DNA of 64,000 nt from Tetraselmis striata. Taxonomy: Eukaryota; Chlorophyta; Chlorodendrophyceae; Chlorodendrales; Chlorodendraceae. Of this stretch, positions 4,637-14,941 are shown in pieces. The stretch is taken from contig VCJN01000889.1 in the NCBI GenBank assembly GCA_006384855.1, positions 1-64,000 of the forward strand. Direction: 5' to 3'. Numbering within the stretch: position 1 is the first letter of the stretch; every line of letters begins with the position of its first letter. The translations under genes and the position numbers were made by a program. The notes below the pieces were generated by a model. The model was given only the letters and a program-made list of their open reading frames with translations. It had not been told where the DNA came from and did no database searches.

Positions 4637-4891
4637 TGCGGCAGTCTCACCCCTCACACACGCAAAAGGCAAGACTGGCGTGAAAACACAGAGGCAATAG
4701 AGAAGAAAGAAACAATGGTTACAATGTTGTCACCACCCGCCGCTATTTATGCGTATGGCGAGCTCACAGCTAGCCACCACCAAGCGGCACGCGCACTGCT
4801 AAGCGCGTCACCGTGGAGAGTCGTGCCTTGAAGTGTCGAACATGAGGTCGTCGCTTAGAGACCTCCGCACAAGTAGTTGACACATCAGTTT
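4637..4891 (-). repeat. Gypsy-type 5' LTR, internal-side half
   Basis: On the minus strand this matches the right half of the solo LTR at 50433-50926 almost base for base over long stretches, including the shared run CACGACTCTCCACGGTGACG. The matching part ends with the dinucleotide CA. What follows leftward begins CTGGTTCCGGACGAGC, a plausible primer-binding site starting with TGG, although the tRNA was not identified. The other half of this LTR lies beyond the Copia insertion. Confidence 0.75.
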
Positions 4892-5393
4892 TGTTGGACC
4901 CATGGTACCCCGGTACCCTGAATCCACTTTTTCTCTCTGTGAAATTCGCATTTTTCAGTGAACAACTGACTGCCGTACATGTGCCTAATTTGGACCGTAT
5001 GGCAGAAGTACGGCACCCAACTGTTACCAAAGCATGGCACCTAGGCATCTTTGCCAGTTGGCCTTCTTAGACGGAGAGGTGTCCTTCCTGATTGACACCT
5101 AGCCGGCTGGTTTAAATTGCCAGCCTCGGCTCCTTGTAATTCAGTCAATTGCTTTTCCCATAAAAAATCCGACTCACCCTTTCTCTCTCGTGACAGTGCC
5201 ACTCAGCCATCACCACGGCGACAGCGACTACCTATCGTCCATTGCCCACGGCTCATAGCAGACCTTTGCCTTTCCAGCTTGCACCTTGCTTGCTGGCACT
5301 CGACGTGATTCGACGCGTGCACGCCGACTCTCGCCGACTCCCCCATCAGTGACAGTGCCACTCAGCCATCACTCCGACAACCCCCCTCCGACA
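4892..5393 (+). repeat. Copia 5' LTR
   Basis: Direct repeat of 11914-12414, with TG at the start and CCGACA at the end. AGTTT precedes it at 4887-4891. An internal ACGGCA/GTACGG-rich part and the run ATTCAGTCAATTGCTTTTCC are shared with the 3' copy. Confidence 0.93.
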
Positions 5394-5587
5394 GTTTTTT
5401 GGGCCCTCTCCTTTGGCTCGACGTCTTGCCCCGTGCTCGACGACGCTTGCCAGAGGCTTCAACCTGCGTGTATCTCGACCCTCGATAGCTTTCGACGATC
5501 AACGGCGACGTACGATGAGCTTTTTCTTTCCACCCGCCCACCCCTACAGTTATAAATCCTCAAGCACAAGTGCGCCATCCCTTCGCA

Positions 5588-6829
5588 ATGTCTACAAGCA
5601 TCAACACCGGCATGATGAACACCCCTCTAGCCAATCTGGCTCGGCAGAGTGCGATCAAGAGCGATCCTGGCCACGCCCCGCCACCTCCTGACTTCCGTGA
5701 TGATACCAGTTCTGACAACGCCTTCATCATGGACGGGGCGTCAGACAATGACTCAGGTGACATCCAACATATCAAGCCAACTGCAGTAAAGCCGACACTC
5801 GACCTCAGGAACGTCCCCATCTGGGACAGCACCATCTCTACGCGGGACAACGCTTAAGCCATCAAGATCGCTCTCGGCAGCGCTGGCTACTTGGACACCA
5901 CCAAGGGCAAAGGCACCCGTGAGGAGCAAATGATCCTTCTGGCAGCCCTACGCCACGCAACAAGGCATTATCCCATGGCACTAGCCATCGTCAACAACAT
6001 GAGCATGGATTCCAGGTAGTGTGGCTATACAGCATGGAAGGCTCTTCTTACTGAGCTCCAGGGCTCAGCCATGGAGGAGCGTAAGCGCTTGGAGGAGGAG
6101 ATCACAGCGGGCCAGCTCCCGAATGAGCCGGTTCATGTGTATGTTCGGCGCTACCAGAATCTCAGGGATCTGTTGAACAAGGCACATGGCCAGTGGACCT
6201 TGGAGTACGTGGCTACCAACTACCTCATGCCAGGCCTTCACCCAGACTACGATCATATCGTCGACACCACCATCTCGGCGGCCACTGTCAACGAAAAGCT
6301 GGCAACCATCATCTGCGCCGGATAGAACATGGAGGCGCGCAAGCGACAGCGTCAGCAGCGCGTCCGCGCGTGCCCACCCAACCTCAATTCCTACAACCCC
6401 AGGGACCCGCAGCACACCACCGGGCCCAACGTCGTCTGCAGACGGTGTGACCGTCCGGGCCATTCCCAACAGCAGTGTGTGGCCAGGCGCCATGCCAACG
6501 GCCTGCGTATCCTGGATGACACCACGCCGACCAGCACCATGAGCAACCCTCGCTATGACCGCCATCAGCGCGCGCCTGCGGAGCGTCGCGTCAACACCAA
6601 GTATGGTCACAACCCGCGCGACAAGTACCACCATCAGGCGCCGCCAGGCCATCAATTCTACAACGACAACCGCAACAATCAGGACAGGCCCCGGCGGCAG
6701 CAGCGTTGGACAAACCAGGGCGGCAACGACGGCATGCAGCGTCATCAGCAGCCGGTCGGCTTCGTCTCCCCGGCCGGGTCATCAGCAGGCCAACGACCCC
6801 TTCAACCAGCGGCCGACGGGACACCATGA
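5588..6829 (+). pseudogene. Copia gag with CCHC zinc knuckle
   Basis: The reading frame opens about 195 bp after the 5' LTR (MSTSINTGMMNTPLANLARQ). A UBN2-like Gag core follows (reading EPVHVYVRRYQNLRDLLNKA near 6130, then NYLMPGLHPDYD). A classical knuckle, CRRCDRPGHSQQQC (C-x2-C-x4-H-x4-C), lies at about 6436-6477. Downstream is an Arg/Asn/Gln/His-rich basic tail suited to nucleic-acid binding. Gag packages element RNA into cytoplasmic particles. Fossil, broken in a few places. Confidence 0.8.
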
Positions 6830-7344
6830 GGCCTACCCGTTCGTGGGAGTGTCCCCATCAGCACAACACCACAGCGGCATGCCCATCATGCTCACCTGCA
6901 ACACCGCCGCCCCAGGAGGGGCGGACACCGGAGCACATGAAGGGGGAGGGCGAGGACAGCGCGGAGGACGACTTACATGACCCATGGCACGTCCCCTACT
7001 CCGACTCTTATGACGACTTCGAGTCCCCATTCTCACACTCATGGCGTGTTCACCGTTGCCGCCCTGACCCCGACGTCTTCCGAATCTTCGATACCCCCGA
7101 CATCCCCCCCCCGCTGGAACGTTTACTCCCATCCTTCCCCCCTCGATCCCCCCATCCACCTATTCGACATCAATTGGCAACGTCCCCACCCCGTCCCCAC
7201 CCCAGCCCAACCCCTATGCCTCACTTCACCCACATTCCCAGCCTCAGCGGCGTTGGCATCCCACATTCTTCATTCGGAGCAAGGCGCCCTGCGTGGCGAC
7301 CCGCCACCAACACTACCGCTCCTCACCGCTGCGCCGATCCTCCC

Positions 7345-8480
7345 GCTGCCAACCTCTCTGGTCATCGACCATCTCTTTTCGCCATGCCATGGCCCATCGG
7401 CATCCGAAGTAGAGGCTCTGGTAGAATACGGCTTCACCATCCACAAGATCACCGGCGCCGACCCGTCGCCCGAGGCTCGTACTCTGTGGACGCATCGCCT
7501 ACATGTCATCAGCGACAAGTACCCGGATCGTCTGCCCCCTTCAACATTTCAGGACTGTCATGCCAGGACCCCCATGGACGTCAATAACATTACCATCGCG
7601 GAGCTAGAGTGCCTGCGTCCGGTCACCCTCATCGTGTCAGGCCCGCCGTGTCAACCATGGTCGCGCACTGGCTCACGCCTTGGCTAGCAGGACCATCGCT
7701 CTAGGGCCTTTGCTTCCGTCATCAATTTCATCCGTTTTTTACCTGACTACACAGCCCACATGGCGGTAGGGGCTCATTGCCCAAATGGCGCCTTTTTAAT
7801 TCCATTGGAATTTATTTCCCGGATTGTGCTTTTTTTATTTCCTGGAAATACTATTTCCAAAAACGTACCTTTTATTTCCGCAGTTTTTATTTCCTGGATT
7901 TGACAAAAAAATATTTCCAAAAACATATTTATTCCGCCCACACCGGTGCGCTACATTTTGGAGAATGTTCTAGTCACATTGGACTTCCCTAAGATACTCT
8001 CCTCACTTGGCACCGTCCGGCAACATCATGCGTGCGACCGCCTGCGGCTCGGCGGCTCACCGCGACACCCTCATGTGGACCAATATCGCTTCGCAAACAG
8101 ACGTCCGAGACTACATCGACAACATCAACGCCATCGAGCTCACCGACCCCGGCCCCTGCGCGTGGGACCTCTGTCTCTCCGAATTCCCCCTGTTTACTCC
8201 GGTGGTGACAACTGACTACTTTCCGAAGTTCGTCGCCCGCCCCGGCTCATACGCTTTTCGCATGCAAACCAACGGTCAGCCGGGCACTGGCATGGTCTAC
8301 GAACACGATGGCCCCTGGTCCTGGGCAGACAACGGCAGATGGTGCGAACCCCCTGCAGCTCTACGCGCTCGCGCCATGGGCTTCACCTTGGATGATCTGC
8401 CCACATCTCACCTTTCTGAGGCGACACTGCGCAAACTTCTCGGCGGAGTCATCGACCTCAACGTCATGCGCAACTACATC
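7345..8480 (+). pseudogene. Cytosine-5 DNA methyltransferase-like domain inside the Copia element
   Basis: Motifs of the C5-methyltransferase family appear in the right order. A motif I-like SAM-binding stretch (VIDHLFSPCHG, from 7360) is followed by an acidic residue after the next strand (GADPSPEA). Motif IV is VSGPPCQPWSRTG (near 7634-7672), with the catalytic Cys of PCQ. A motif VI-like stretch reads RYILENV (ENV at 7961-7969). A motif VIII-like stretch reads GSAAHRDTLMWTN (about 8046-8084). The C-terminal signature is ALRARAMGF (8358-8384) followed by LLGGVIDLNVMRNY, as in motif X. The family transfers methyl from SAM to cytosine C5. It lies between the gag knuckle and the retropepsin, inside both LTRs, so it belongs to the element. 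The fossil is interrupted. Confidence 0.8.
7775..7945. other. AT-rich segment within the methyltransferase-like region
   Basis: About 170 bp of strongly AT-rich DNA with repeated ATTTCC and TTTATT words, in sharp contrast to the GC-rich Copia coding around it. It lies between the motif IV part and the ENV motif. It could be a small secondary insertion or an intron-like spacer. No clear terminal repeats or target duplication were found. Confidence 0.5.
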
Positions 8481-8559
8481 AAGGCTGTCTCGGGCGCCGC
8501 CCCTTCCCCAGTCGTCATCACTGTCTGCCACACGTCATACGGCACCTTCATCACCAGCG

Positions 8560-9100
8560 ACGGCGAGGCATGGGTGCTCATCGACTCGATAGCATCCTCT
8601 CACGTCAACGCCCACCGCACCGACTACATATACTACATGGACCTTCTTGCGGCGGAGCAATTTCTGGTGGGCGGTTTCGGGCAACCGGCAGTCGGCATCG
8701 GCACCACGCTGGCGCCAACACTAGACATCACAGGCAGGCCACATACCATTGTGGCACCATACTCCCAACATCACCTCCAGTGTCGGTCTCACCAACATCG
8801 GCCGCCTTCTCAGCATCCATCAACTCAACAAGCAGGGCTACTCTTTCTACTTCAACCGCCTCCTCAACAACATGATCACCCCAGATGGCGGCAGTCATCC
8901 ACCTTCAGCCCCGTCCCGGCACCACATGCATGTACGGCATCAAGCTCCTTCCCATCCGCGATCCGTCTCATGGGGTCATGGCACTGCCATCTCCAACAGC
9001 CTCCTACTCCCTGTGGCATCTTCGACTTGGTCATCGTTGCGCGCCACATCGAGCTCACCCAACAACACGCCATCGGCATCCCGAAACTTGGATCGGCACC
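8560..9100 (+). pseudogene. Copia protease and GAG-pre-integrase region
   Basis: The stretch GEAWVLIDSIASSHV (about 8560-8606) has the form of the Copia aspartic-protease core, where W-[IL]-[LI]-D-S-G-A-[ST]-x-H is usual. About 430 bp later comes the GAG-pre-integrase signature LWHLRLGH (about 9016), preceded by a hydrophobic strand region. The domain order protease, pre-integrase, integrase is standard for Ty1/Copia. Confidence 0.75.
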
Positions 9101-9173
9101 GGAGGCCATATGCCCCGCGTACATCCAGGCCAAATCCCACCAGTAGTCAGTCAACCGTCAGCCCTCCCCACGC

Positions 9174-9913
9174 GTGGCGGCACCGTACATGCTCATGGTC
9201 ATCGACGACTGTAAGGGACCTTGTCCGTCGGTCACTGGCGCGCATCATGTCTTCGGCGCGGTGGATTCCTACACTGGAGTGGAGGTAGCGATCACCATGC
9301 GCACCAAGGACGAGGCCGTCCGCGCCATCCATCAACTTCATGCGGCGGTTCTCGGCATGGGTCACACCGTTCAACGCATACGTGCCGATCGCAGCAAAGT
9401 TTATACCGGCTCTCCGTTTCGTCAAGCATGTGCCGACCTCAACATCGCGATGGAGTTTACCGCATCCCACTCTCATTATCAGGCAGGCTTGGCGGAGCGC
9501 TCTTTCCGCACTATCGGTGAGTGTGCCCAAGCCATGCTCCTCCACGCCGGCCTCGACCGCACCTTCTGGGATTGGGCCTATCTTCACGCCGTCTATCTCT
9601 GCAACGCCACTGGAGCTCGTCCGTTAACGCCATACCTTACACGCTGATGACCGGTCGCAAGCCCGACATGGCCAACCTGCATGTTTTCGGCTGTGTGGCA
9701 TGGGTCAACATACCTGTGACTATGCGGGCAGCCAAGGGAAAAATGACACCTAAATCTTGGCCGGGCATCTACCTTGGCCACCATGAGGACTCCGCCGGCT
9801 ACCGCATCTACAACCCAGCTACCATGCGCGAAACAGTTACACGCGATGTCATCTTTGACGAGATGACACGACCCTTCTCCAACACACCGGCACTCTCTAT
9901 GCCAGTCTTCTAG
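9174..9913 (+). pseudogene. Copia integrase
   Basis: An rve-type core: the first acidic residue lies in FGAVDSYTG, the second in RIRADRSKVY, and the glutamate in QAGLAERSFRTI (the family usually shows NGxAER). It continues into the Copia-type C-terminal part, reading NLHVFGCVAWVNIP, KSWPGIYLGHHEDSAGYRIY and RDVIFDE. The enzyme inserts element cDNA into chromosomal DNA, leaving the 5-bp duplication seen here. Fossil. Confidence 0.88.
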
Positions 9914-10259
9914 CTCCCCGACGATGACCACCTGATGGACGAGCCGCAACCCTTGGACCAGCAGGAGGGGCCCCAAGCGCCGCCACCCATGCCACCATCA
10001 GCGGCGCTTGCCTCAGCGCAGGAGGGGCCCTCACCTCCGCAGCTAGAAGGGCAGTATCTTCCGCGTCATCATGAGGGGGACGCCACAGCACTACCAACTC
10101 CTCGCTCCAGTGAATCAGCGCACATATCTTCCCCTTATGTCGACCTCAGCGACTACCACCCCACACTAGTGGCATCCGCCATCGCGGAGGTTGTGCGCCC
10201 CTACCCGGCGCAAATGGCCGCCCTCGCCCTGCCAGCACCCATTGTCCGCGTGTCCAAGG

Positions 10260-11906
10260 CGCCGCGCAACTACAAGGAGGCCATCTCCAGCAATCACCCC
10301 GATGACTGGAAACATTCCATGGACCGAGAGATCGCCTCTATCACCAAGATGGAGACCTTTGTTTGGATCAGCATCCCTGAGCTTCGCCGTGACAACCCAT
10401 CAGCAATCACCATACAGACGGCGTGGGCCTTCGCGGAGAAACAAGACAAGGATGGCAACCTCATCAAGCGCAAGGCCAGAGTGGTTGTTCGCGGCGATCA
10501 ACTTACTGCCGGCGAGAACTATGATGACACTAAGACCTATGCCCCATTCGTCAGTTTCATTGCCTTGCGCACCACTATTGCTCTCGCAGTTCAACTTGAC
10601 TGGGAGATGTACCAGTTCGACGTCACCTGTGCTTTCCTCACCGCTAACCTCGATGCAGATGTCTACGTCTAAGCCCCCCCCCCCCCCCCCCCCGGCTACG
10701 GCCGCAAGGATCAGGCTTGGAAACTCGTTAAGGCACTCTATGGCCTGCCGTAGGCACCCAAAGGCATGGTTTCTGCGCTGTTCTTCTTTTCTCCGTGACT
10801 TCGGCTTCGTCAGCTCCGAGTGCGATCCTGGCGTATGGACGCTGCTCGCAGTCGATGGATCGCTGTTGACCATCCTATGCGTCTACGTCGAGGACGTCAT
10901 GCTGGCTACCTCCCCATCGTCCGCCATCCGGGAGCGTTTTCAGACTTCTGTCTTCGCTACGTTTGATGCGACTACTAACGGCCTATGCACCTGGCTTCTT
11001 GGCATGGCCATTGACCGCAAGCCGGGAGGCGTGATCCACCTCCATCAGGAGAAATACATCAACGACATCCTGACTACCTTCAACATGGCGGCGTGCGCGC
11101 CTCGCCGCCTGCCCTGCATGCCGGATACCGATTTTCATGACCCTACAGGCACGCCCCTCGACACCAAACCCTTTCCCTATCCCAATCTTGTTGGTAACCT
11201 TATCTGGCTGGCTGTGGCATCACGCCCGGACATTGCGTTCGTGGTCGGCCGAGGGTGCGCCTACATGGCGTCCCCCACCGAGCGTCACTGGCAGATCGCC
11301 GTATCGGTGCTGCGATACCTCAAGGGCACCCCCAACCATGGCCTTATTTTCCGGAAACAACTTGACAACGAGGCACCTGACTTCCTCTTCTTTGTGGACG
11401 CTGACTGGGCAGCCCTCATGCCCAAACGCCGCTCCACTATCGGCTATCTTGCCCTAGTGCACGGCACCCCAGTCGCCTACCGCGCGCAAGTTCAGAAGAG
11501 CGTGGCCCTGTCTACTGCCGAGGCGGAGCTCGTGGCGCTCTGCATGGCATGCAAATGTCTGGCGTTTATTCGCGTTCTTCTGCGCCAGCTCCACCACCCC
11601 ACCACTGACCCGGTACGGGTATGCGAGGACAATCAAGCGTGCATCGTTCAGGTGAAGCATGGTATGATTACAGGCGCGCAACGCCACATTGACCTCAAGT
11701 TTCAGTATGCAGCGCAACTCTGCCAAGACGGCGTCATCGACATGCACTACACGCCTACCGCAGACCAGCTCGCCGATTTCTTCACTAAGGCGCTGCCGCT
11801 GACTACCTTTCTTCATTTCCGCACTTTCTTGATGGGGTCATCCGAGGAGCCCTGTGTTGCCCCTATGCCGCCATCAGTCCTGCGCCTGCGGGATTCCACA
11901 GGATGA
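10260..11906 (+). pseudogene. Copia reverse transcriptase and RNase H
   Basis: RVT_2 begins after a short spacer: NHPDDWKHSMDREI, then KARVVVRGDQ, TYAPFVSFIALRT and YQFDVTCAFL. A poly-C run lies near 10674-10693. The catalytic loop corresponds to YVEDV near 10886 (family usually YVDD). Later landmarks are LVGNLIWLAVASRPDIAF, ADWAALMPKRRSTIGYL and STAEAELVAL for the RNase H-like domain. The end reads DFFTKALP, typical of Copia polyproteins. The last part (10780-11906) is open over more than 1 kb, matching the modest LTR divergence. Confidence 0.9.
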
Positions 11907-11913
11907 GGAGGGG
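11901..11913 (+). other. Polypurine tract of the Copia element
   Basis: All-purine-but-one run GGATGAGGAGGGG abutting the 3' LTR. Plus-strand DNA synthesis primes at such tracts in LTR retrotransposons. Confidence 0.7.
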
Positions 11914-12414
11914 TGTTGGACCCAGGGTACCCCGGTACCCTGAATCCGCTTTTTCTCTCTGTGAAATCCGCATTTTTCAGTGAACAACTGACTGCCGTAC
12001 ATGTGCCTAATTTGGACCGTATGGCAGAAGTACGGCACCCAACTGTTACCAAAGCACGGCACCTAGGCATCTTTGACAGTTGGCCTTCTTAGACGGAGAG
12101 GTGTCCTTCCTGATTGACACCTAGACGGCTGGTATAAATTGCCAGCCTCGGCTCCTTGTAATTCAGTCAATTGCTTTTCCCATAAAAATTCCGACTCACC
12201 CTTTCTCTCTCGTGACAGTGCCACTCAGCCATCACCACGGCGACAGCGACTACCTATCGTCCATTGCCCACGGCTCATAGCATCCCTTTGCCTTTCCAGC
12301 TTGCACCTTGCTTGCTGGCACTCAACGTGATTCGACGCGTGCACGCCGACTCTCGCCGACTCCCCATCAGTGACATTGCCACTAAGCCATCACTTCGACA
12401 ACCCCCCTCCGACA
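11914..12414 (+). repeat. Copia 3' LTR
   Basis: Direct repeat of 4892-5393 at about 97% identity with one 1-bp length difference. It is preceded by a purine-rich tract (GGATGAGGAGGGG, 11901-11913) and followed by the target duplication AGTTT (12415-12419). Confidence 0.93.
12133..12139 (+). promoter_or_regulatory. TATA-like box in the Copia 3' LTR
   Basis: TATAAAT about 220 bp into the LTR, upstream of the likely U3/R boundary. This is the only promoter-like element visible in the repeat; transcription start was not determined. Confidence 0.4.
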
Positions 12415-12679
12415 AGTTTATACACAAGTATACAACTGATGTTACATAGGCAGGTGCATTATTATGCATATATGCCCGCTACGCGTACGCACATGCGTAT
12501 TATCCCGTAACTACTACTGAACAGTGTACCGGTACCAGTAGAACTCATCTCATAATTCATCATCCACCATTACTCGTATTCTGGTGCGTGACACACGCGC
12601 GCACACATATGATACAACATGTACATGAATGATGCTACGATCATACAGTACCCGTACATAATATGCCATTATTGTCACA
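12415..12679 (-). repeat. Gypsy-type 5' LTR, outer half
   Basis: This matches the left half of the solo LTR at 50433-50926 on the opposite strand, starting TGTGACAATAATGG. Together with 4637-4891 it makes one LTR of about 515 bp, split by the Copia element. AGTTT is present at both joints (4887-4891 and 12415-12419), as expected for the Copia target duplication. Confidence 0.75.
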
Positions 12680-12851: not shown

Positions 12852-13385
12852 TTCGAGGGTGTCCGAAACGCCGCCGGCATGCTTCGCTTTGTTCCTTTCG
12901 CCGTTTCCGAGTTCGGCTCGTTGGCCCCGCACGCCAAGGCCTTCTTGGTGGAGCTCGCGAAAGCTAGCCACACACACACTGGCCAAAAAATCGGCCAGCT
13001 CATGTTTGCGTGGCGCCGCCGTTTCTCCTTGCTCATCAACATGGCACATGCAGACAACGTTCTTGGCGGGGTCACGGCCGCGCGCGCGGCACGTGATGGT
13101 GCTCCTGCGCCTGCGTCGCGTCGCTTGTCGGCATGTGTTGCTATCACCCGGGTCTTTGGCTGCAAGCGTTCTCGCCGCAGCTGATGGCCTACCCCGGGGC
13201 GGTGGTCCCTTTGGTTCGTGGCAGCTTGGCGGTGGTCCCTTGGCTCCCCCTTGGGTATTGGCTCCCTGACCTCCTGCTCGACCTTGGTTTCAGGCTTATG
13301 TCTCTCTTTTGCTGGCAACCCTTCATAGTTGCTGTTAGTTCTGTTTGTAGTGCGCATCTGTTAAAGCCCAGATGTAAAAATCACT
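12852..13385 (+). mobile_element. 5'-truncated non-LTR retroelement copy (3' end), plus strand
   Basis: The C-terminal tail of a retroelement reverse-transcriptase protein ends at 13184. It reads GVRNAAGMLRFVPFAVSEFG, then EAFLVELAKAS-like residues and a basic end (CKRSRRS). Such tails (AE.RK..KY, F.PF..E..G) terminate many retroelement RT proteins in algae and protists. About 200 bp of 3' untranslated sequence follows, ending near an A-rich GATGTAAAAA. A second, inverted copy of the same element lies at 14288-14941. The 5' end is cut off. The RT clade cannot be fixed from this piece. Confidence 0.55.
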
Positions 13386-14287: not shown

Positions 14288-14941
14288 TAATTACATCAGG
14301 GCTTTCACAGAAGCGCACTACAACAGAACTAACAGCAACTATGAAAGGTTGCCAGCAGAAAAGAGACTTAAGCCCGAAACCAAGGTCGAGCAGGAGGACA
14401 GGGAGCCAAGAACCAAGAAAGAGCCAAGGGAACCACGAAGTCACTTAGCTGCCAGGAACTTAAGGAACCCCCGCCCCGGGGTAGGCTATCAGCTGCGGCG
14501 AGGACGCTTGCAGCCAATGACCCGGGTCATAGCAACACATGCCGACGAGCGACGCGACGCAGGCGCAGGAGCACCATCACGTGCCGCACGCGCGGCCGCG
14601 ACCCCGCCAAGAACGTTGTCTGCATGTGCCATGTTGATGAGCAAGGAGAAACGGCGGCGCCACGCAGACAAGAGTTGGCCGATTTTTTGGCCAGTGTGTG
14701 CTTGGCTAGCTTTCGCGAGCTCCACCAAGAAAGCCTCGGCGTGCGGGGCCAGCGAGCCAAACTCGGAAACGGCGAAGGGAACAAAGCGAAGCATACCGGC
14801 AGCGTTTCGGACACCCTCGTCATACTTCTGGATTTTGCGGCGCTCTGCAGCCCGCAAAGCAGTCGTTGGATCCGAGGTTGACACGCCGAGGATAGGGGCA
14901 ATGGTGGTATCGACAGCAACCGTGTTTCCGCGGATGCCGCC
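14288..14941 (-). mobile_element. 5'-truncated non-LTR retroelement copy with 14-bp target duplication
   Basis: Inverted homologue of 12852-13385 that reaches farther upstream: NTVAVDTTIAPILGVSTSDP, then AAERRKIQKYDEGVRN and LRFVPFAVSEFGSLAPHAEA, to a basic C-terminus at 14489. The 3' untranslated part ends near TGATGTAATT (14288 side). It is flanked by ACCAGGGTTATCCT at 14274-14287 and 14961-14974, a 14-of-14 match, as expected from target-primed reverse transcription. Copy B of the surrounding segment (about 57060) lacks the insertion. Confidence 0.6.

Follow-up and report, generated by a model that had tools for sequence, protein, structure and literature searches.

A C5-cytosine methyltransferase domain in the Gag-Pol polyprotein of Copia retrotransposons from the green alga Tetraselmis striata

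The window, a stretch of 64,000 nucleotides, corresponds to contig C703 of the 224,097,584-base assembly of Tetraselmis striata, a chlorophyte of the Chlorodendrophyceae. It carries a retrotransposon of the Copia type, which is beside Gypsy the other main superfamily of LTR elements. The element spans positions 4892-12414 and is flanked on each side by the 5-bp duplication AGTTT. Its two LTRs are 97% alike, with 491 identities, 14 mismatches and 2 gaps where they align (about 505 bases). Its features are as follows.

4887..4891, + strand: 5' target-site duplication AGTTT, read from the sequence
4892..5393, + strand: 5' LTR (TGTTGG...CCGACA), starting with TG and ending with CA
5588..6829, + strand: gag region with an ATG at 5588, in several frames (decayed)
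6437-6478, + strand: gag-type CCHC knuckle CRRCDRPGHSQQQC, in Pfam only sub-threshold
7334..8501, + strand: C5-methyltransferase domain, broken, as aligned to the L031 domain
8573..8770, + strand: protease / Pol beta-barrel region, limits approximate
9147..9647, + strand: integrase core (rve; Pfam, E 3.1e-8)
9914..11906, + strand: RVT_2 reverse transcriptase with the RNase H part, spread over two overlapping frames, the RNase H end by eye from homology to L031
11900..11913, + strand: purine-rich tract preceding the 3' LTR, read from the sequence
11914..12414, + strand: 3' LTR, starting with TG and ending with CA
12415..12419, + strand: 3' target-site duplication AGTTT, read from the sequence

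The integrase together with the RVT_2 reverse transcriptase identifies this as a Copia element. RVT_2 lies downstream of the integrase both here and in the family members tested, and it was RVT_2 and rve that we found in the T. striata elements, not the reverse transcriptase and recombination machinery of DIRS or Gypsy elements. The original prediction, that a C5-methyltransferase domain sits in a Copia element between gag knuckle and protease and inside LTRs with a shared duplication, was borne out on both counts, as RVT_2 and rve were found and the isolated domains of all five families described below (F1-F5) score over the PF00145 cut-off. Its domain limits of 7345..8480 gave the right location and were slightly too narrow.

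The window copy is dead, a point that the original prediction had not seen. Its gag and Pol are split over several frames, and the Pfam matches in gag are both sub-threshold (Retrotrans_gag, E 0.018; zf-CCHC_5, E 0.04). The protease motif at 8580-8603 is mutated to DSI where DSG is expected, the reverse transcriptase reads YVED in place of YVDD, and the methylase is broken. In the homologous stretch of protein P0004, the Pol_BBD match reaches 20.3 of the 27 bits required and is thus below cut-off. An intact-looking member of the same family, F5, is found on contig C444 (L031), where a single Gag-Pol frame of 2130 amino acids includes an open methylase between LTRs that are near-identical (484 identities, 1 mismatch). 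Compared with L031, the aligned bases of the window methylase region are 95.6% identical (1519/1589), and the domains show 95%, 70% and 96% identity in three pieces. The window methylase contains a TAG stop at 7685-7687 and additional nucleotides at three places: 1 near 7735, 182 from about 7754 and 4 near 8013. The 182-nt insertion (7754-7935) is AT-rich with repeated TATTTCC and TTCCAAAAA words, and a second copy was not found among the loci compared. Just 3' of the 3' LTR, the window also carries inverted repeats of 373 nt (12854-13226 and 14447-14819, 94% complementary) and 110 nt (13236-13345 and 14322-14431, 90% complementary), which enclose a spacer of about 1 kb.

Motifs of the methylase domain could be located in the window from 7373 to 8477 in the order that is typical of C5-methyltransferases, just as had been predicted.

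7373-7420, + strand: motif I-like
within 7637-7663, + strand: PPCQPW
within 7961-7975, + strand: ENV
8046-8078, + strand: GSAAHRDTLMW
within 8367-8384, + strand: MGF
8436-8477, + strand: LLGGVIDLNVMRNY

The motifs so named agree in position with the profile alignment, in which the motif IV Cys, motif VI Glu and motif VIII Arg follow each other in C5-methyltransferase order. The profile check against PF00145 had a divided outcome: taken by itself, the broken fragment from the window stays below the cut-off of 22 bits (18.7 bits, E 0.0013), whereas the open L031 domain scores 40.2 bits (E 3.5e-10). The isolated F1, F2, F3 and F4 domains reach 49.9, 36.5, 22.6 and 32.4 bits, and all six isolated domains, including that of the additional element L046, exceed the cut-off of 22 bits (range 22.6-49.9); the F3 representative (L029), scored inside its whole polyprotein, reaches only 18.7 bits. 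An hhalign comparison of the six domains with seven full-length C5-methyltransferases aligned them across motifs I to VIII (98.9%, E 1.1e-17). A chance match of motifs was considered and is excluded by the L031 alignment and the PF00145 scores over cut-off. The domain is thus almost certainly a C5-cytosine methyltransferase by descent, as judged from these alignments, namely a divergent C5-METHYLTRANSFERASE which we do not call DNMT3.

Searches of the PDB with the domain profile recovered HaeIII (2e-9), a DNMT2-type tRNA methyltransferase (3.4e-8) and DNMT3A (4.8e-7), and the F1 domain as a single sequence matched the HaeIII methylase first and the tRNA methyltransferase DNMT2 next. Both the rank of DNMT2 in the single-sequence search and its better profile score compared to DNMT3A, as well as the frame that the methylase shares with the gag knuckle, would fit an enzyme that methylates element RNA (m5C) rather than DNA in the particle and, for example, favours packaging or hides the RNA. 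However, the best match is a DNA methylase, and DNMT3A matches the longest stretch (profile residues 82-194, compared to 80-159 for the DNMT2 types). We regard an RNA substrate as a serious but less likely alternative, at about one chance in five.

Methylase-bearing elements of five families, F1 to F5, were found in T. striata. The F5 element L031 is described above, and the representatives of the others are as follows.

F1: L009, frame of 2299 amino acids
F2: L032, frame of 2483 amino acids
F3: L029, frame of 2147 amino acids
F4: L030, frame of 2164 amino acids

Pairwise identity among F1-F5 is 30-51% in the methylase domain and 32-72% in the reverse transcriptase. The domain of L046 is 44% identical to that of F1, and by sequence this element looks like a further methylase-bearing family. 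Single frames of 2299 and 2016 amino acids show the Pfam order CCHC, DNA_methylase, Pol_BBD, gag_pre-integrs, rve, SH3 and RVT_2, with rve below the Pfam cut-off in these two frames; overall, rve is over cut-off in the window, L029 and L032 and under it in L009, L017, L030 and L031. In the representatives of F2 to F5, the methylase occupies the same place just upstream of the protease, with knuckles that are below the Pfam cut-off or were read by eye (the F1 knuckle is over cut-off). The L031 protease was placed by its DSG motif, as Pfam gave no Pol_BBD match there at E 0.05. From the end of the domain, as cut, to the start of the DSG/DTG motif, the gap is 16, 17, 16, 26 and 24 residues in F1 to F5, respectively. 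LTR pairs were aligned in L009, L026, L029, L030 and L031, and the target duplication was read in the window copy; for L032 and L033, in which the sequence examined ends close to the frame, no LTR pair was found. L033 (1561 amino acids), the one element read of an abundant Copia group that we term F0, has gag, protease, integrase and reverse transcriptase, and Pfam finds no methylase domain in it.

The methylase domain is, therefore, a standing part of the Gag-Pol polyprotein in a group of T. striata Copia elements. The original prediction would have failed had all other family members lacked the domain; instead, L031 has it at the same place, as do four more families. If a methylase gene had merely inserted once into a single retrotransposon copy and become a pseudogene, this would agree with the broken state of the window copy, but such a one-off event is refuted by the five families that carry the domain in open frames and at one common position, and we give it practically no weight.

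When the assembly was queried with the methylase domains of F1, F4 and F5, at least 117, 128 and 125 matches were obtained, respectively; the three sets overlap in part, and some loci appear as two or three separate matches. Among the matches listed for F1 and F5, at least 25 places carry the domain in an open frame of at least 2000 amino acids (F1, 6; F2, 2; F3, 10; F4, 2; F5, 5). For each reverse transcriptase, we asked whether the same strand has a methylase match located 0.8-4.5 kb upstream. One was found for 50 of 56 in F1-F3 and near relatives (all at least 58% identical to the F1 reverse transcriptase), 23 of 25 in F4, 15 of 22 in F5 (where 158 matches were obtained and the first 22 were used) and 0 of 94 in the F0-like group (50-51% identical to the F1 reverse transcriptase), where an unmatched reverse transcriptase does not equal a domain-less element, the methylase matches used being at least 117 for F1, 35 of at least 128 for F4 and 61 of at least 125 for F5. 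Among the six F1-F3 misses is C2171, where the domain is 9 kb away with opposite-strand frames in between. The count of 0 of 94 leaves out a 325-amino-acid stand-alone C5-methyltransferase frame of another kind, 2.7 kb upstream of the F0-like reverse transcriptase at C776:84595 and on the same strand, so that a methylase neighbour of some kind does occur in F0.

This frame belongs to a set of stand-alone, full-length C5-methyltransferase frames of 325 amino acids that we observed six times (L001-L006, on C1993, C776, C1647, C2337, C355 and C1455). Their neighbours are frames of similar lengths which gave no Pfam match where tested, and the units are perhaps another mobile or viral element. At a further locus (L007, C2385:454794-458405), a C5-methyltransferase frame adjoins frames for RNA polymerase Rpb1 and a DDE_3 transposase, possibly in an endogenized region of a large DNA virus. 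Finally, at 45 places (e.g. C1912:281412-282056), we observed an F5-related subfamily with 61-73% identity, in which the match to the domain is limited to roughly residues 1-214. In proteins P0027-P0031 of this type, the middle of the methylase runs, as read by eye, into the region after the integrase; protease and integrase seem to be deleted.

A protein search with the C-terminal piece of the window domain returned 21 proteins, all of them named T. striata, and the F1 domain matched three T. striata proteins together with P0025 and P0026. With the profile, which scored the best 8000 candidates by shared words, a list that does not contain P0025, there were 40 matches: 30 from T. striata and 10 weak ones to other C5-methyltransferases. 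P0025 (395 amino acids, from a 5499-base ENA contig) is the sole relative from outside T. striata among the search matches. Like the T. striata elements it has a methylase fused to Pol_BBD, and it shares 45% identity with F1 across 63% of the query; it begins just before motif IV, and a reverse transcriptase was not seen. Viral contigs scanned with the window fragment gave no match, and a scan with the profile gave 32 loci with identities of 27-38%, almost all of them confined to query residues 73-231; we take these loci to be ordinary C5-methyltransferases.

To follow the history of the domain, we compared a methylase tree with a Pol tree built without the methylase domain. The split between F1, F2 and F3 on one side and F4 and F5 on the other has a support of 100 in the Pol tree and 99 in the methylase tree, and the grouping of F4 with F5 has 100 and 96. 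In the methylase tree, F1 joins F2 with a low support of 60. P0025 groups on the F4-F5 side. An outgroup for the reverse transcriptase was sought in viral contigs and the PDB and none was found, so that the Pol tree is unrooted; with one family that lacks the domain, one gain followed by loss in F0, one gain with F0 at the root, and two gains are indistinguishable. One reading, at odds clearly below even, is a single capture before the F1-F5 split, after which the methylase would have been kept as a Gag-side component of the particle and methyl-tagging of the cDNA would be a basic step of the life cycle, with F0 as the family without it.

How well the domain is maintained can be read from its residues. 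Across 38 copies selected for a full-length domain, the catalytic Cys of motif IV is kept in 36, with L039 and L045 as the exceptions, and all 38 have the motif VI Glu of ENV; both residues serve C5-methyltransferase chemistry. The canonical forms of motif I and motif X are FxGxG and GN, as is also seen in the A5 consensus. In every family, the SAM-binding motif I is degenerate and reads C-x-G-x-x, not F-x-G-x-G, with the second glycine absent (CAGAT, CSGAT, CAGAL, CCGGT and CHGPS); that it is non-canonical in the whole lineage went beyond the original prediction. Motif X reads G-[AG]-[CV]-[IV]-D-x-N, without the usual Asn of GN, and in F4 CCE replaces PCQ. The degeneration of motifs I and X in all families and the loss of the Cys in two copies are what one would expect if the domain were catalytically inactive and had been retained as an extension of Gag that binds nucleic acid or has a structural role. 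Set against this is the retention of Cys and Glu across families that are only 30-51% identical in the domain, and we consider inactivity a serious but less likely alternative at roughly one in four, slightly ahead of an RNA substrate.

Selection was assessed by dN/dS (NG86). In ten within-family comparisons of the domain, we obtained 0.215 and 0.272 for F1, 0.34 and 0.476 for F3, 2.84, 0.35 and 0.279 for F4 (the value of 2.84 resting on 8 and 1 changes) and 0.313, 0.259 and 0.327 for F5; the four of these pairs with dS of about 0.1 or more range from 0.21 to 0.31. Between families, dN/dS was 0.28-0.39 in three of four pairs (dS 1.6-1.8), with one pair saturated. When L026 and L020 were compared with L009 region by region, dN/dS was lowest in gag (0.16 and 0.14, respectively), followed by the methylase domain (0.22 and 0.21) and protease-integrase (0.33 and 0.29), and highest in the linker that precedes the domain (0.70 and 0.67). 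The domains of L016, L017, L018 and L012, which are close to L009, gave 0.42-1.05 on 4-11 changes and are little informative. On these values, the methylase domain is apparently under purifying selection in the Copia families.

A second set of 15 pairs was taken from the F1 copies L016, L019, L020, L021, L026 and L053. The five pairs with L016 gave 0.19-0.21 and the four pairs of L021 with the others 0.27-0.42; the six pairs among L019, L020, L026 and L053 gave 0.78-1.40 on 10-18 changes. We also observed that L016, L019, L020, L024, L026 and L028 lack Pol from residue 1628 on, including most of the reverse transcriptase. The junction 1627/2119 is common to all but L024, which resumes at 2146, and in L016, L020 and L026 gag, methylase, protease and integrase are open over 1767-1806 amino acids; the L053 frame equals that of L026 in length. 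These copies are a non-autonomous series that dropped the reverse transcriptase and kept the methylase. The high dN/dS among L019, L020, L026 and L053 suggests that selection on the methylase may be relaxed once the reverse transcriptase is gone. Separately, dS of L020 and L026 against L009 is 0.187 in the methylase and 0.06-0.07 in gag, linker and protease-integrase, which might reflect an exchange of the methylase between subfamilies through template switching.

CpG observed/expected ratios are 0.81-0.82 in F1 (five elements), 0.81 in F2, 0.89 in F3, 0.97 in F4 and 0.90 in F5, and the window copy has 0.92; outside the elements, the remainder of the window has 1.0 and the pooled flanks have 1.06. 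CpG depletion was rejected as a sign of self-methylation, because the F0 element without methylase is also at 0.81. Of the C>T singletons among eight F1 copies, CpG sites account for 23 (against 903 unchanged sites) and other sites for 46 (against 2782), an odds ratio of 1.54 (p 0.12). Thus, neither the CpG ratios of F0-F5 nor the C>T singletons of the eight F1 copies gave a methylase-specific CpG signature. A non-CpG target is possible. The missing signature adds weight both to methylation of RNA and to an inactive domain, and together with the degenerate motif I it counts against activity; catalysis on nucleic acid appears likely, at close to two in three.

As a whole, we propose, with a probability of roughly 0.55, that the methylase is packaged as part of Gag-Pol, freed by the protease and methylates the cDNA of the element. 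The domain would be made within Gag-Pol and, probably, given its place in the single Gag-Pol frame, packaged into the virus-like particle. The products of Copia Pol are released by the element protease, which would free the domain along with integrase and reverse transcriptase. Inside the particle, the domain would meet the genomic RNA and the new cDNA. Less certainly, it might methylate the new element cDNA before integration, and the new copy would then reach the nucleus already marked as resident DNA, in line with the protecting or marking role that the original prediction had tentatively raised; cDNA as the main substrate is the likeliest of the readings, though at slightly under an even chance. 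A variant of this mechanism with a different benefit is that the methylase restrains the element, in that self-methylation silences new copies, harms the host less and lets copies persist. Many near-identical copies do persist in the assembly, and slower retrotransposition to the benefit of the host has been raised for other retroelement methylases in the available text of PMC5890265; we rate such restraint as improbable, well behind the marking of cDNA.

That retroelements can carry methylases was known, as the original prediction had stated. According to the available part of PMC5890265, DNMTs are present in LINE and DIRS elements of Symbiodinium and in a Gypsy element of Klebsormidium, while abundant Copia elements of Symbiodinium are without a DNMT domain. 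KnitGypsy-Dnmt3 of Klebsormidium nitens resembles the T. striata elements as an LTR element of a green-lineage alga with a methylase in the polyprotein frame and under purifying selection, but it is of the Gypsy type, with the domain in Pol and classed as Dnmt3 (PMC5890265, in part); the T. striata elements have a Copia reverse transcriptase and the domain between gag knuckle and protease. SymbioDIRS-Dnmt3 likewise has its methylase in a retrotransposon polyprotein, cDNA methylation has been proposed for it, and two of its domains methylate CG de novo in yeast; unlike the T. striata elements, it is of the DIRS type with a tyrosine recombinase instead of a Copia integrase (same source). SymbioLINE-Dnmt shares with our elements a methylase of an orphan lineage that is not clearly Dnmt1, 3 or 5, and differs as a LINE with the methylase in ORF1 and CG depletion relative to domain-less elements (same source), a depletion of a kind not found in the T. 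striata elements.

One sentence in the available text of PMC12344493 (2025), citing PMC5890265 (2018), places some DNMT3s in LTR Copia and DIRS elements. This names Copia elements as carriers, but details are absent from the text and the cited paper reports Gypsy; Copia may be meant as such or be a slip for Gypsy. 'Tetraselmis' does not occur in the main text of that paper as available. According to PMC9998398, again in its available part, three Tetraselmis species have transcripts of DNMT6, and DNMT5a is reported from T. astigmata. A description of methylase-bearing Copia elements of T. striata was not found in the open-licence PMC literature, judged mostly by listing. The suggestion that this may be a new case thus holds for the superfamily, with that single Copia mention as a caveat: new, relative to the LINE, DIRS and Gypsy carriers in the available text of PMC5890265, is a methylase in Copia elements that is extensive and Gag-side.

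Hosts silence transposons by cytosine methylation, a relation that is turned around when the elements bring their own enzyme. The cases in the available text of PMC5890265 come from dinoflagellates and a charophyte; here, the carriers are at least five deeply separated Copia families of a chlorophyte. Young full-length copies, a Gag-side place that predicts packaging and a related element without the domain make the role of the enzyme directly testable. Moreover, if a single capture before the F1-F5 split should be true, F0 would be a natural control inside one culturable alga.
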